DNA of 64,000 nt from the NCBI GenBank assembly GCA_012295275.1, contig CM022674.1:4409936-4473935 (forward strand), in the 5' to 3' direction. The notes beneath the pieces are model-generated. The model searched no databases, was not told the origin of the DNA, and saw only the letters and a program-made list of their open reading frames with translations. Position 1 is the first letter of the stretch, and each line of letters opens with the position of its first letter. This DNA comes from Chrysomallon squamiferum. Lineage: Eukaryota; Mollusca; Gastropoda; Neomphalida; Peltospiridae. The translations under genes were made by a program, and so were the position numbers. Below, piece after piece: positions 41,250-60,538 of the stretch.

Positions 41250-44181
41250 TCATTTCTCTTCTGTAGTTCTCACGTCACTATGAAGTAAAATAAAGTAAAT
41301 AATATATATGCAGACATCCACATTCTTACACACACACACACACAGGCACACGCACATATATATATATATATATCATGGAAATAAATAAAAAATGAGCTGC
41401 CTATAACTAAAACATTTGGAAATTTTAATCAGGGATCACTGTTTACTGTTATACATGATTCTGATGTAGAATAATACTCACACACTCCGGCTTTGACTGG
41501 GGAACCTGTATAAATTGAAAAATAGTGAGAGGTTAATTCTTCTGAATGATTTCAATCTTTTACATTAGTATTATATTATCTCTTGCGTAGTTTGTATCAT
41601 AATTCTCCTTTTGTAGTTGTAACAACGTTCTGAAGTAAAATAAAGTAAATAATATATATTCAAACACATAAAGATATATATATATATATATGTATGTATG
41701 TATGTATGTATGTATGTATGTCAGGTAAATGAATAAACGAAATTTTAATCAGGGATTATTGTTTATTATTATAAATGATTGTTCTGCCCATCTATCTCTC
41801 TCCGTGTGTCACACATATATTTGTCTTTCTTTGTTCATATTAATCTGGACTTAAAATAATCTTTACTTACGTGTCAGAGGAGATGGATCGGCCACGGCCA
41901 CGGCCATGATTCCTGAAAAAAAAAAAGAAAAAAAGAAAATATTTTACTTAGTGCCACTTTTGCTGAATAGAAAAATTATCCAGGTACATTTTACCTGTTA
42001 GCTCAGTTTCACATTGTGTGTGAGGTACAGAGTTGATATCTCAGACAAAAAGTGGACCTAGTCGATCATTCAGAGATATTTACTTTATACGATTATGACT
42101 CGTATACTGGAACTAACCGTTATTTTAGGCACACCTGTATCTATTTTACGCAGGATGAATTAATGTTAACACATAAAGATATAATAAATTATTATCGTAT
42201 TTTACACAATAATACAATTTAATTTAACAGCTGTTTGTGAATATTGTTAGCGTTATTGTTACTGTTGTTATTATTACTATTATTATTATAATCATAATTA
42301 TAATCATTATTATTGATTAATTTATTTTTCTACTTTAAATAAAACAACATTTGCTGTTACCAAATTATATCAACTGCAATCTACATCATATCGTTAAATG
42401 GAGTTTATCATTGCTCTGTTAAGAAAGAAAACACACACATATATAGTCACACAAACACACTCAAACACATACACGTACCTGAATCATTACTTTAGTGTGA
42501 ACCAATAAAATATGGAACGATAATTTATTTAATAATATTTTAATTGTTTCCTAGAACGTTTACAAGGTTTACGGAGATCAACAACAGAATCGTGATATTA
42601 ACAAATAGTGAAATGTCATTTTGTCCTCTTTTCACATTAAAACTCAGTAAACATGATAACTGATTTATGTGTTTGTTACTTCATAATAGGTGTTCGAAAA
42701 GAAAGACACACACTGATCTAACAGTGCTGCACTATTGGTGATGTCATTTATGTTAGGGATTAACAGAATGATATTCACAGGTGGAACGAATCACTGTAAG
42801 AAGAATAAAAACAATCAGGAGAATAATTCTGCAGTTCAAAAGTATGAATTCATTTTTTATCAGTCAATTTTACTAGTTAATGTACTAGGAAAACCTAAAA
42901 TAAAAGTAACAAAAATAGATATATAGATAAATAGATGAACATGTATGTATATATGAATGTATATATGTGCACGTGTGAATGTATATATCTATCTATCTAT
43001 ATATATATATATATATATATACATGTACACACACAGATATAAAGGTATATGTGTAACTTGCGCTAGGGAATAATTAACTATAACCGTTAAAATCTCAAAT
43101 AAAATATAAAAGTAACAGGACTGCGGGTAAGTCAGATTGAGACATATACAGAGAGAGATAGAGAGAGAGAGAGAGAGGGAGAGAGAGAGAGAGAGAGAGA
43201 GAGAGAGAGAGAGAGAGAGAGAGAGAGAGAGAGAGAGAGAGAGAGAGAGAGAGAGAGAGAGAGAGAGAGAGAGATAGAGAGAGAGAGAAAGAGAGAGAGA
43301 GAGAGTAATTCTTGAAAATATGCATTTTAAAAGAAAGAGAAGAGGAGTTCAACTTATTAAAAGTAGTAGCTTTTTAATTTTCTATGATATTATACATTTT
43401 AAACGAAATTCTCGATAATATCTTCCTTTATTTTTTAATATCGAATGTATACCAAAAGAAAGGTGAAACATATTGAAATTAACCTAATTTATATTCATTC
43501 TAACGGAAAACCTTCGGTTTATCATTAACATAAATTCTTAATATATTTCCAGATTCCAGTACTCATTTATTATACGATTTATTTTTACACGTTTTTAATG
43601 TTAGATCTCAGTTATTTTCTTAACATGAACATATTCCTTTGACTAGAATTACATTGCATCTGTTTTATTCTTTCGAATAATATTCAGTTATGAACTCAAA
43701 CCGACGTAAAGCAAGTCAAACGTAAAAGAAATAGCAAATATTTGATTTAAAATATATTGGTATTGAACTCCATGTGACTAGTGGTGCAAAGAAAAAAAAA
43801 AAAAAAAAAAAGAAAAGTAATAATAATAATAATAATAACAGGAGTGGTAGTATATACAAATTACATTTATATAATTAAATCTGTGTGATAAGAAAGATTT
43901 TACATTCAATATTATTCAGGTGAAATGTTTTATATCTTAAAATTCCGCAGATGTATTTGTACTGGAATAAATTAAGATTATTACAACTATATTTAATTAC
44001 ATACTAAAAAAAAAAGTATTTTATTTTGCACTAACATGGATTCATTCACCCGTCTCATATTAAATGTTACTGAAGAGGAAAACGAAACTTACCGGTGATG
44101 TGAATGCAGTTTAACACTAAACAACCACGCTGACGTGAAAGCAATCAACAGCAGAATAATTTGCAGTTTCAACGCAAACAT
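41250..44181 (-). CDS. Micro-exon secreted peptide, copy E
   Basis: Four coding exons on the minus strand. Exon 44093-44196 (ATG 44179-44181) starts MFALKLQIILLLIAFTSAW, a signal peptide, followed by FSVKLHSHH. Exon 41871-41912 (42 nt) encodes NHGRGRGRSISSD; exon 41482-41505 (24 nt) FPSQSRS; exon 41250-41277 (28 nt) DVRTTEEK and TGA. All junctions are phase 2. AATAAA follows (complement of 41222-41227). Total is 60 codons. The secreted part is rich in Arg and His at its start. The 12-nt micro-exon of D, F and G is missing with its surroundings, and the next exon is 12 nt longer, so length is unchanged. The main intron holds a GA run. A basic antimicrobial-like or signalling peptide is possible; nothing here proves it. 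Confidence 0.7.
41560..41639 (-). other. Candidate alternative 3' exon of peptide E
   Basis: After acceptor tacttcag (exon start 41639 on the minus strand) the sequence is clearly related to the terminal exon 41250-41277 and its 3'UTR (acgt, acaactacaaaaggaga, gagataata). It looks like a duplicated terminal exon. Joined in phase 2 it would give a different C-terminus (TLLQLQKE). Counterparts lie at 51242 downward and from 60147. Confidence 0.4.
41940..43090. other. Intron of peptide gene E
   Basis: Intronic sequence with CA, ATT and TA tracts. Positions 42735-42926 hold an ORF that is not shared in frame with gene F (around 52440-52640). No exon seen. Confidence 0.5.
43148..43306. repeat. 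GA run inside peptide gene E
   Basis: GA repeat with a few GAT and GAAA interruptions, lying in the intron between the signal-peptide exon and the 42-nt exon. As transcribed it is a CT polypyrimidine run. Gene F has the same at 53018-53148. Confidence 0.97.
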
Positions 44182-58368: not shown

Positions 58369-60538
58369 ATGTTTGCGTTGAAACTGCAAATTCTTCTGCT
58401 GTTGATTGTTTTCACGTCAGCGTGGTACCATTTCGATCACGAGAAAGAACGTCGCAGGTAAGATTTCGTTTTCCTCTTCAGTAACATTTAATATGAGATG
58501 GGTGAACGAATCCATATTAGTGCAAAATGAAAGACTTTGTTTAGTATTGGGGATTGTAGATGTAATTAAATATAGTTGTAATAATCTTAATTTATTCCAA
58601 TACAAATGCATATGCGGAATTTTAAGATATAAAACATTTCACCTAAATAATATTGAATGTAAAATCTTTTTTATCATATAGCTTTAATTATATAAATGCA
58701 ATTTTTATATACTACCATTATTATTATTATTATTATTATTATTATTATTATTATTATTATTATTATTATTATTATTATTATTATTTTTATTTTGCATCAC
58801 GAATCAGATATTTGCTATTTAATTTACGTTTGACTTGCTTTACATCAGTTTGAGTTGTTTTACTGAATATTATTCATAAGAATAAAACAGATTCAATGTA
58901 ATTCTAGTGATAGGAATACATTCATGTTAAGAAAATAACTGAGGTGTAACATAAAAATCTGCAAAAATGAATTGTAAAACTGAATACTGTTTTCTCTCAG
59001 TTGATAATAAATGAATTATTTTTGCTCGGAGTTACAAACTACTTTATAATTTTCTAGCAGTCTTTATTTCATCGTTTAACCAGACATATTCACCTCAATG
59101 TGTTCATATTAATATTCACTTTTTTAGCGACACGAATGAGTAAGTAGAAATTTATTTATAAGTTAATTTAATGTATAACATTGTAAACGTTCTCGCAAAC
59201 AATTGAAATATTATTAAATACATTATCGTTCCATATTATTTAGGATAATACAAAATTAATGATTCAGACGCGTCTGATGCCAAATCCATGTGAATGTGTG
59301 TGTGTGTGTTTTCTTTCTTGACAGAGCAGTGATAAATAATAGACTAAATTCCATTTAACGATATGATGTAGATAGCATTTGATATAATCTGGTAACAGCA
59401 AATGTTGTTTTATTTAAAATAGAAAAATAAATTAATGAGTAAAAATGATTATAATGATGATTATAATAATAACACTAACAATATTCACAAATAGCTGTTA
59501 AATTAAAGTGTATTATTGTGTATAATACGAGAATAACTTATGATCTCTTTATTCAGTTCATGGTGTAATAAAGCTGCCATACGTTCGTTAAGTTAACATT
59601 AATTTATCCTGCGTAAGATTGATTCAGCTGAACCTAAAATTACGGTTAGTGCCAGTATACGAGTCATAATCATATAAAGTAAATATCCCTGAATGACCGA
59701 CTAGGTCCACTTTTTGTCTGAGATACCAACTCTGTACATTATACACAATGTCAAACTGAGCTAACAGGTAAAATGTACCTGGATAATTTTTATATTCAGC
59801 AAACTGTGGATTTGAATAAAATATTTTAATTTCTTTTTTGTTTTGTTTTTCAGAAAACTTGAGCAATCCATCTCCTCTGACACGTAAGTAAAGATTGTTT
59901 TAAGTCCAGATTAATATGAACAAAGAAAGACAAATATATGTGTGACACACGAAGAGAGATAGATGGGCAGAACAATCATTTATAATAATAAACAATACAC
60001 CCTGATTAAAATTTCGAAATTTTTTAGTTATAGGCATCTCATTCTTTACTCATTTACCTGACATATATATATATATATATATATATATATATATATATAT
60101 GTGTGTGTGTGTTCGAATATATAGTATTTACTTTATTTTACTTTAGATGGTTGTTACAACTACAAAAGGAGAATGATGTTAGAAGCTACGCAAGAGATAA
60201 TATAATACTAATGTAAAAGATTGAAATCATTCAGAATAATTAACCTCATTATTTTTCAATTTATACAGGTACCCCAGTCAACGCCGGAGTGTGTGAGTAT
60301 TATTTTACATCAGAATCATGTAAAACAGTAAACAGTGATCCCTGATTAAAATTTCCAAATGTTTTAGTTATAGGCCGCTCATTTTTTTTTTTTTTCCATC
60401 ATATATATATATGTGTGTGTGAGTGTGTTTGCGTGTGTGTGTGTGTGTGTGTGTGTGTAAGTATGTGTATGTCTGTATATATAAATTATTTACTTTATTT
60501 TACTTCATAGTGACGTGAGAACTACAGATGAGAAATGA
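58369..60538 (+). CDS. Micro-exon secreted peptide, copy G
   Basis: Five coding exons on the plus strand. Exon 58354-58457 (ATG 58369) starts MFALKLQILLLLIVFTSAW and continues HFDHEKERR. Micro-exon 59128-59139 (12 nt, CGACACGAATGA) gives DTN; exon 59854-59883 (30 nt) KLEQSISSD; exon 60269-60292 (24 nt) YPSQRRS; exon 60511-60538 DVRTTDEK and TGA. AATAAA is at 60561-60566. Total 60 codons, all junctions phase 2. The first part of the mature peptide is charged and unlike E and F, while the end is conserved. The paired Arg residues (QRRS) here and in F could be a processing site, but E has QSRS. Introns are 669, 714, 385 and 218 bases. Confidence 0.72.
58722..58783. repeat. ATT run in intron of gene G
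   Basis: ATT trinucleotide run in place of the short AAT runs seen at the same point in D, E and F. Confidence 0.97.
60147..60225 (+). other. Candidate alternative 3' exon of peptide G
   Basis: Acceptor ttttactttag, then ATGGTTGTTACAACTACAAA, homologous to the terminal exon at 60511 and its 3' flank. Phase-2 entry gives WLLQLQKEND and a later stop. It sits between the 30- and 24-nt exons as in E and F. Confidence 0.4.

Follow-up and report, generated by a model that had tools for sequence, protein, structure and literature searches.

Copies D, E, F, G and H very probably (about 85%) form a genuine family of protein-coding genes for secreted peptide precursors in a gastropod, and their predicted products are best read as secreted peptide effectors under diversifying selection. 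According to their sequence, the genes share a plan: a TATA-like box, a non-coding exon, a signal-peptide exon, phase-2 micro-exons whose lengths are multiples of three, and a short terminal exon with a stop codon, followed by AATAAA. Compared with the surrounding introns, evolution is much faster in the coding stretch that directly follows the signal peptide, in the predicted exons of 12 and 15 nt, and at the beginning of those of 30 nt. Throughout, the window is the whole 64,000-nt stretch of DNA that was analysed.

A preliminary description had given E, F and G one common series of coding exons. By script, we located the signal-peptide, 30- or 42-nt, 24-nt and 28-nt exons of all three at exact positions, but the 12-nt exon in F and G only, because E lacks this exon and its surroundings in the alignment. 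The exon lengths are 89, (12), 42 or 30, 24 and 28 nt, where E carries a 42-nt exon in place of the 30-nt one. Each copy sums to 183 nt, equal to 60 residues and TGA, as had been described; 60 residues did not hold as the general size of the family, being the short form only, with longer genes on another contig (C15). Also borne out were the phase-2 introns and consensus splice sites, with an AG acceptor and a GTAAGT, GTGAGT or GTAAGA donor at every internal junction of E, F and G, together with the promoter and polyadenylation signal. The TATA-like box reads TATATATAA in E and TATAAATA in F and G. It precedes a conserved non-coding stretch with a GTAAGT donor at its end, and AATAAA starts 23 nt past the stop codon in all three copies. 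The features have the following positions in the window:

44575..44646, minus strand: E, TATATATAA (44646-44638) and 5′ UTR exon up to the donor at 44575; exon start predicted
44093..44181, minus strand: E, coding part of the signal-peptide exon, 89 nt, donor GTAAGT, codons 20-30 hypervariable
41871..41912, minus strand: E, 42-nt exon NHGRGRGRSISSD
41482..41505, minus strand: E, 24-nt exon FPSQSRS
41250..41277, minus strand: E, last coding exon, 28 nt, TGA; AATAAA at 41227-41222
54585..54656, minus strand: F, TATAAATA (54656-54649) and 5′ UTR exon up to the donor at 54585; exon start predicted
54153..54241, minus strand: F, coding part of the signal-peptide exon, 89 nt
53481..53492, minus strand: F, 12-nt micro-exon GGATCGAGATTA
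51494..51523, minus strand: F, 30-nt exon NSGRSISSE
51105..51128, minus strand: F, 24-nt exon FPSQRRS
50677..50704, minus strand: F, last coding exon, 28 nt, TGA; AATAAA at 50654-50649
57894..57965, plus strand: G, TATAAATA (57894-57901) and 5′ UTR exon up to the donor at 57965; exon start predicted
58369..58457, plus strand: G, coding part of the signal-peptide exon, 89 nt
59128..59139, plus strand: G, 12-nt micro-exon CGACACGAATGA
59854..59883, plus strand: G, 30-nt exon KLEQSISSD, without the G-R site present in other copies
60269..60292, plus strand: G, 24-nt exon YPSQRRS
60511..60538, plus strand: G, last coding exon, 28 nt, TGA; AATAAA at 60561-60566
32489..32577, minus strand: D, coding part of the signal-peptide exon, 89 nt
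31814..31825, minus strand: D, 12-nt micro-exon GGTCCCACAATG

Copy D shares the plan of E, F and G and is cut downstream of its 12-nt exon by a gap of 200 N (31500-31301). Copy H (locus L026, at 4.372 Mb of C10, the same contig as E, F and G) is complete and follows the same plan. The predicted products of E, F, G and H have a hydrophobic 12-mer from residue 4 (mean KD 2.5-2.7), no cysteine and no long low-complexity repeat; three of these four short products are basic, and that of G is acidic (−2).

A scan of the alignment for conserved AG-[9-60 nt]-GTRAG candidates yielded four in sense and none in antisense across E, F, G and H, and five and none across F, G and H. The sense candidates comprise the donor ends of the 5′ UTR and signal exons, the 30/42-nt and 12-nt exons, and a further one of 56 nt, which is probably due to chance and whose length is not divisible by three. 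The scan missed the 24-nt exon, for which a gap in the alignment of F is the probable reason; having no donor, the last exon is beyond the reach of such a scan. All 19 signal exons, including the divergent one of locus L025, are 77, 83, 89 or 95 nt long, equal to 2 modulo 3, and free of stop codons.

We then compared exon with intron divergence. At the level of sequence, the results support the earlier picture of a conserved leader and C-terminus around a strongly varying mature N-terminus, the pattern of a fast-evolving effector. Between copies, introns differ by 1-15% and variable coding segments by 5-65%, and in all 10 pairwise comparisons the latter exceed the former (JC ratio 3.4-11.9; the D-H ratio has only two differences behind it), counts that are not independent events as the copies are of common ancestry. 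Pooled over E, F, G and H, divergence is 2-11% in the intron and UTR pieces adjoining exons and 21% in the T-rich piece that precedes the 30-nt exon. Codons 20-30 reach 53%, the 12-nt exon reaches 67% (F, G and H only) and the initial 11 nt of the 30-nt exon reach 52%; the limits of the variable parts in the signal exon and 30-nt exon were chosen after viewing the copies, unlike the limits of the 12- and 15-nt exons. When 3145 intervals of the gene alignment were scored, the top 31 all overlapped variable exon segments, with the 12-nt micro-exon ranking first, and equal blocks placed at random in the introns of F, G and H reached the observed value in 0 of 100,000 placements. The conserved coding part evolves more slowly than the introns in E-G, E-H, G-H, D-G and D-H and slightly more slowly in F-H; it is equal to them in E-F and F-G and faster in D-E and D-F. 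F has an altered signal-peptide end and a conserved part that is overall no slower than its introns, so this copy may be in decay or under different selection.

Longer genes with the same leader form a cluster near the end of contig C15 of the same genome, with serially repeated exons of 15, 24 and 30 nt. A flank-anchored, length-blind search recovered 73 exons (62 distinct), all of them multiples of three without a stop codon (27/27, 15/15, 21/21, 2/2 and 8/8). The evidence for an open frame is this search, not an earlier listing limited to multiples of three. Some extra candidates in that listing, such as the 21-nt IKLEYV, may be chance. The family's copy number is a lower bound, taken from the best 38 of 1444 DNA-search candidates scored.

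One C15 precursor of 126 residues (gene at 39-26 kb of the joined stretch; last-exon start 25771, final residues read by hand) has four units ending in PF-GR, RW-GR, RF-GR and RF-GR, with near-constant spacers. Its R-F/W-G-R-S repeat resembles an amidation site, and its repeated R-F-G-R units resemble molluscan FMRFamide-type precursors. These four GR-ending units and a weak match to the Pfam FARP family (PF01581; 13.8 bits, below the curated cut-off of 15.5) would suit endogenous neuropeptide-like precursors, whose G-R-S sites free amidated RFamide-like messengers for the snail's own receptors. We consider this unlikely: unlike in FMRFamide-type precursors, the hypervariable part is the peptide itself while the spacers are conserved, and the residue preceding G varies freely (F, W, P, H, N or I). 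Within the Pfam, protein and literature searches made, the family is undescribed, as it had first appeared. No Pfam family scored above its cut-off, the E, F, G alignment and the C15 precursor had no protein relative at E <= 1 in a database that may hold few molluscs or eukaryotes, and the literature matches listed included no mollusc micro-exon family. The missing relatives are weak evidence, because a CARD protein in the window also lacks a match at E <= 0.001, so that the database perhaps contains few molluscs. The molluscan origin implied in the preliminary description is upheld by 27 matches to the molluscan hemocyanin beta-sandwich in the genome, compared to none in 14 control genomes. 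These matches rule out a schistosome origin, and an aphid or related-insect origin is likewise ruled out, as the genome is molluscan. The host is probably the scaly-foot snail, Chrysomallon squamiferum, for which PMC7142155 reports five tissues with RNA-seq and about 65 SRCR (DMBT1) copies on the Hox contig.

The C15 exons show the same contrast with their flanks. The 15-nt exons, a class of a single length only with 21 distinct among 25, diverge by 0.519 inside and by 0.098 in each 45-nt flank, the 30-nt A exons by 0.282 inside and 0.132/0.096 in the flanks (20 distinct of 21), and the 24-nt exons by 0.191 and 0.120/0.087 (12 exons). It is improbable that exon-targeted mutation or segment replacement, not selection, created these differences. 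Such a process would fit the first and last bases of the 15-nt exons, which vary by 0.45 and 0.72 compared to 0.026 and 0.082 in the 20 bases on either side. It would also fit the increase at all codon positions; the third positions of the 15-nt exons are raised too (0.387 versus 0.508 and 0.622), which is not simply predicted by selection on amino acids alone. However, selection explains both the open frames and the excess of nonsynonymous over synonymous codons in 23 close exon pairs (22 versus 2, P = 0.03, taking in single-difference codons only).

Quite improbable, too, is a structural or biomineralisation role in the matrix of shell, scale or mucus, with relaxed constraint as the source of the variation. 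Such proteins would account for the signal peptide, the repeats in C15 precursors and the lack of relatives found, and would suit a probable host that makes shell and scales; however, the short products have neither cysteine nor a long low-complexity repeat, and relaxed constraint does not produce divergence far above the intron rate.

Class B exons of C15, which have a defective acceptor, do decay. Their 29-nt form diverges by 0.078 inside and 0.083/0.087 in the flanks (8 distinct of 9) and their 30-nt form by 0.100 and 0.324/0.058 (5 distinct of 7), while of 17 exons 9 have a length not divisible by three and 8 contain a stop codon. As live RFamide exons they were rejected, the GAG acceptor, frame breaks and intron-like rate marking them as relics. 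Their G+C content is 0.49-0.51, and composition proves little because these dead exons are G+C-rich too. The C15 12-nt exon, nearly invariant with its donor lost, provides a second dead-exon contrast. That the family consists of non-coding or decaying recent duplicates, with chance or relic splice-like motifs, is very improbable given the conserved splice candidates, signal-exon lengths, exon/intron divergence, open frames and the contrast with class B, even though, with pairs pooled, signal codons 1-19 and the 24-nt exon evolve no more slowly than adjoining introns.

The gene plan is best read as convergent with schistosome micro-exon genes (MEGs) and aphid bicycle genes. Schistosoma MEGs encode secreted products with a conserved signal peptide; they are reported to contain numerous very short exons, chiefly multiples of three and most commonly 15 bp (PMC10526429), and a fast-evolving mature part, with a mature-region dN/dS of 1.10-1.14 in three MEGs (PMC4350168). 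The snail family is similar in its predicted secretion, its conserved signal-peptide exon, its series of micro-exons in multiples of three and its fast-evolving mature part; its variable exons exceed introns 3- to 12-fold, a different measure from dN/dS. It differs from MEGs in phylum and in keeping C-terminal spacers and G-R-S sites, and the protein database searches gave no sequence relative. Its copies in the window have 4-5 coding exons and one C15 model has 15 ahead of the last, compared to 10-20 in MEGs. Bicycle genes of Hormaphis cornu and its relatives are rapidly evolving putative effectors with many unusually small internal exons, nearly all in phase 2, and about 17 exons on average, at least 5 (PMC9168663). 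The internal exons of the snail family are likewise in phase 2. Bicycle proteins are larger with a cysteine/tyrosine pattern, unlike the 60 residues without cysteine of the window copies. Conotoxin precursors and the doppelganger toxins of cone snails combine a conserved signal and spacer with a hypervariable peptide, and are of gastropod origin (PMC10501145). The snail family also has a conserved signal and a hypervariable mature peptide. Conotoxin precursors have few, larger exons and usually cysteine frameworks, unlike the serial micro-exons and cysteine-free products of E, F, G and H.

In the mechanism that we propose, duplication would supply copies, splicing would remove the introns as drawn, and the product would be secreted. 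Because phase-2 exons are symmetric, the frame stays intact when one is lost, gained or repeated. Cleavage may occur at G-R↓S sites, with the preceding G becoming an amidated C-terminus, as the motifs suggest; candidate cut sites are KY-GR↓SISS in H, NS-GR↓SISS in F, and HRW-GR↓S and YLRF-GR↓S in the C15 precursor. The released peptides of 10-20 residues, not the spacers, would carry the function by acting on a co-evolving partner, whether a microbe, symbiont, parasite, prey or mate. Of all single roles, an antimicrobial or symbiont-controlling one is tentatively ranked highest, given that the probable host, the scaly-foot snail, is a vent species with symbionts and that, of the four short products, three are basic. 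A bolder version appears doubtful: an independent, MEG-like mollusc arsenal of amidated external peptides, built from skippable and repeatable phase-2 cassettes, with exon-focused diversification (3- to 12-fold over introns, from the splice junction on) by extreme diversifying selection or an exon-directed process that yields ever new peptides, perhaps for policing the symbionts or pathogens of a chemosymbiotic vent snail.

Micro-exon effector families are already known from blood flukes and aphids. A third origin, seemingly independent of both and in a mollusc that probably does not live as a parasite, would suggest phase-matched micro-exons as a general route to fast-changing secreted peptides. 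The intron-exon contrast would allow transcript-free gene finding in any genome, by searching for tiny hypervariable islands between conserved splice sites, and the family would offer a concrete candidate set of host-microbe peptides.

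The preliminary description had named exons for E, F and G, the three complete copies of the micro-exon secreted-peptide gene in the window, and all of these exons were found there with an exact letter match. Every internal junction of the three copies is in phase 2. A TATA-like box and the non-coding first exon that follows it are conserved upstream of the coding exons, as is an AATAAA starting 23 nt past the stop.

Copies of the gene, with predicted products
E, window, minus strand: coding exons 89+42+24+28 nt, 183 nt = 60 residues + TGA; MFALKLQIILLLIAFTSAWLFSVKLHSHHRNHGRGRGRSISSDTFPSQSRSVDVRTTEEK
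F, window, minus strand: coding exons 89+12+30+24+28 nt, 183 nt = 60 residues + TGA; MFALNLHILLVLLIFWSSRSRRRGERQNPMDRDYNSGRSISSETFPSQRRSVDVRTTEEK
G, window, plus strand: coding exons 89+12+30+24+28 nt, 183 nt = 60 residues + TGA; MFALKLQILLLLIVFTSAWYHFDHEKERRSDTNEKLEQSISSDTYPSQRRSVDVRTTDEK
H, same contig (C10) at 4.372 Mb, locus L026: complete, 60 residues by predicted splice, assembled from two readings (residues 1-51, plus the last exon); MFALKLQILLLLIVFSSAWFLTGKLHSHHRVQPWKYGRSISSDTYPSQLRSVDVRTTDEK
D, window 32577-31814: cut; downstream it is followed by an N gap

In E, F and G, the intron that precedes the 24-nt exon holds a second copy resembling the last exon (41549-41658 in E, minus; 51182-51271 in F, minus; 60118-60227 in G, plus), which may be left over from an earlier serial repeat.

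Divergences were pooled across all six pairwise comparisons among E, F, G and H (three comparisons for the 12-nt exon, which E lacks). The intron and UTR pieces next to exons differ by 2-11%, the T-rich stretch preceding the 30-nt exon by 21%, signal codons 1-19 by 10.8%, the final 19 nt of the 30-nt exon by 7.9%, the 24-nt exon by 9% and the last coding exon by 3%. Divergence reaches 67% in the 12-nt exon, and 53% in codons 20-30 of the signal exon and 52% in the 30-nt exon's first 11 nt, the limits of the latter two having been chosen after inspecting the copies. Among 3145 twelve-column windows scored, the one with the highest divergence is exactly the 12-nt exon; these three variable segments are overlapped by all of the top 31 and by 37 of the top 40, the other three starting at columns 1815, 3721 and 3722. 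Across the ten pairs among D, E, F, G and H, whole introns diverge by 1.3-14.6% and variable coding segments by 4.5-65%; the JC ratio lies between 3.4 and 11.9 and is raised in 10/10 pairs (the D-H pair having two differences only). None of 100,000 random placements in the introns of F, G and H was as high as the observed mean.

Because the pairwise comparisons differ in direction, purifying selection on the conserved coding part is seen, at the level of these alignments, in some pairs (conserved coding/intron divergence: E-G.048/.107, E-H.064/.083, G-H.040/.131, D-G.018/.111, D-H 0/.013, F-H.120/.146) but not in E-F (.120/.121), F-G (.120/.115), D-F (.158/.100) and D-E (.053/.039), a group that takes in most of the pairs with F. 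An alignment scan gave 4 and 5 conserved micro-exon candidates in sense versus 0 and 0 in antisense; one of the five is probably due to chance, and divergence is a stronger test than this count.

The window corresponds to C10:4,409,936-4,473,935 in a 404.6-Mb genome (22 contigs). A DNA search of this genome scored only the best candidates, and its listed matches are in part simple repeats. Among them are many relatives on contig C15, at 31.01-31.16 Mb and 31.565 Mb, in the final 0.7 Mb of a 31.7-Mb contig; two further sites, C10:11.87 Mb and C1:9.12 Mb, show traces. The longer gene models on C15 begin with the same UTR and signal exons and continue with serially repeated phase-2 exons.

Residues encoded by C15 exons
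30-nt, class A: RWGRSTPTR, RFGRSTPTR, GWGRSTPSR, RPGRSTPTR, RNGRPTRTG
24-nt: SRHIDEY, SRQSDEI; 15-nt form SRQI
15-nt class: GPYY, APYY, VPLN, EHGY, QYGY, FPYY, GSPY, HLHG

The 15-nt exons (21 distinct of 25) diverge by 52% inside versus 10% in 45-nt flanks. When exons of the live classes are located by their flanks with length left free, 73/73 (62 distinct) have a length divisible by three and no stop, and signal exons are 2 mod 3 in 19/19. Single-difference codons in 23 close pairs comprise 22 nonsynonymous versus 2 synonymous changes (P = 0.03), with 8 more differences, in multiply changed codons, standing outside this ratio. Because the copies share ancestry, all of these counts look more independent than they are. 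A parallel class B on C15, 29 or 30 nt long with acceptor GAG, provides a natural dead-exon control: the 29-nt form diverges by 7.8% inside versus 8.3 and 8.7% in its flanks, the 30-nt form by 10% versus 32 and 5.8%, 9/17 are not multiples of three and 8/17 contain a stop. The 12-nt exon is hypervariable on C10, but its homologues on C15 (e.g. loci L013 and L014) hardly vary: they mostly read GGACCCAAACTA or ...CCA, and their GTAAGT donor is gone, reading GTCATT or similar. This is consistent with an exon that has fallen out of use and has stopped changing fast.

One C15 model, at 31,043,848-31,030,771, minus strand, has 15 exons before the last and a predicted 126-residue precursor with the units PF-GR-STPTRT, NHRW-GR-STPTRK, HGYLRF-GR-STPTRT and YGYLRF-GR-STRTRT. 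A glycine ahead of a basic residue is the usual context for amidation and cleavage. In the A exons, variation at the codon preceding G ranks with the highest (0.59, 0.76, 0.65), and the G-R-S codons are steadier (0.00-0.27). Of the short copies, H, E and F retain G-R-S; it is absent from copy G. From this pattern we infer a likely path in which the peptide would be secreted and cut between the R and S of G-R-S, and amidation would then follow, setting free a short variable peptide; the SISS-PSQ-DVRTT tail (short copies) or the STPTR spacers (C15) would form the carrier part. Gene structure and selection pattern are established at the sequence level; splicing, processing and target are those we infer.

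Other features of the window
600-1322 (-): CARD-domain protein exons (Pfam PF00619), E 8.2e-14, two exons joined by eye
23617-23928 (-): CARD-domain exon, E 7.6e-5, just under the cut-off
54-296: stretch adjoining the first CARD exons, repeated at 11229-11471
29948-30235 (+): calsyntenin C-terminal fragment (PF19699, E 1.1e-7), again near 6840-6990, in a segmental duplication
37900-38060, 39540-39690, 49570-49740, 61300-61470: stretch duplicated along with the repeat units of the peptide genes, in inverted orientation next to G; one strand Gly/Met-rich, the other Pro-rich
33780-34340, 45490-45980, 57060-57260: tandem repeat with a 29-nt unit (around CAGAACGTTACAGTCCATTACTG), located upstream of D, E and G
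62735-62860 and 63390-63525 (-): two exon-like frames, rich in cysteine, from a protein that looks secreted; joined, no match in Pfam

Elsewhere in the genome, contig C6 carries 27 molluscan hemocyanin beta-sandwich matches, the best solved relative of one unit being 'Hemocyanin isoform 1' (3j32), from abalone. PMC7142155 places the endosymbionts of the scaly-foot snail in the oesophageal gland, and reports 2415 novel genes as well as the expansion of families linked to the regulation of innate immunity.

In gene plan and evolution the family resembles, as far as the available descriptions go, schistosome MEGs, whose exons are mostly 15-bp, and aphid bicycle genes, whose exons are tiny and phase-2. 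Because its origin differs and homology searches found no sequence link, the snail family would, by analogy, work like these genes without belonging to them; a literature search for a mollusc micro-exon family gave none among the matches listed. In the snail family a hypervariable peptide is combined with a signal and a spacer that are conserved, a pattern that PMC10501145 treats as well described for conotoxins. This analogy makes a peptide that acts outward more likely than an internal messenger.
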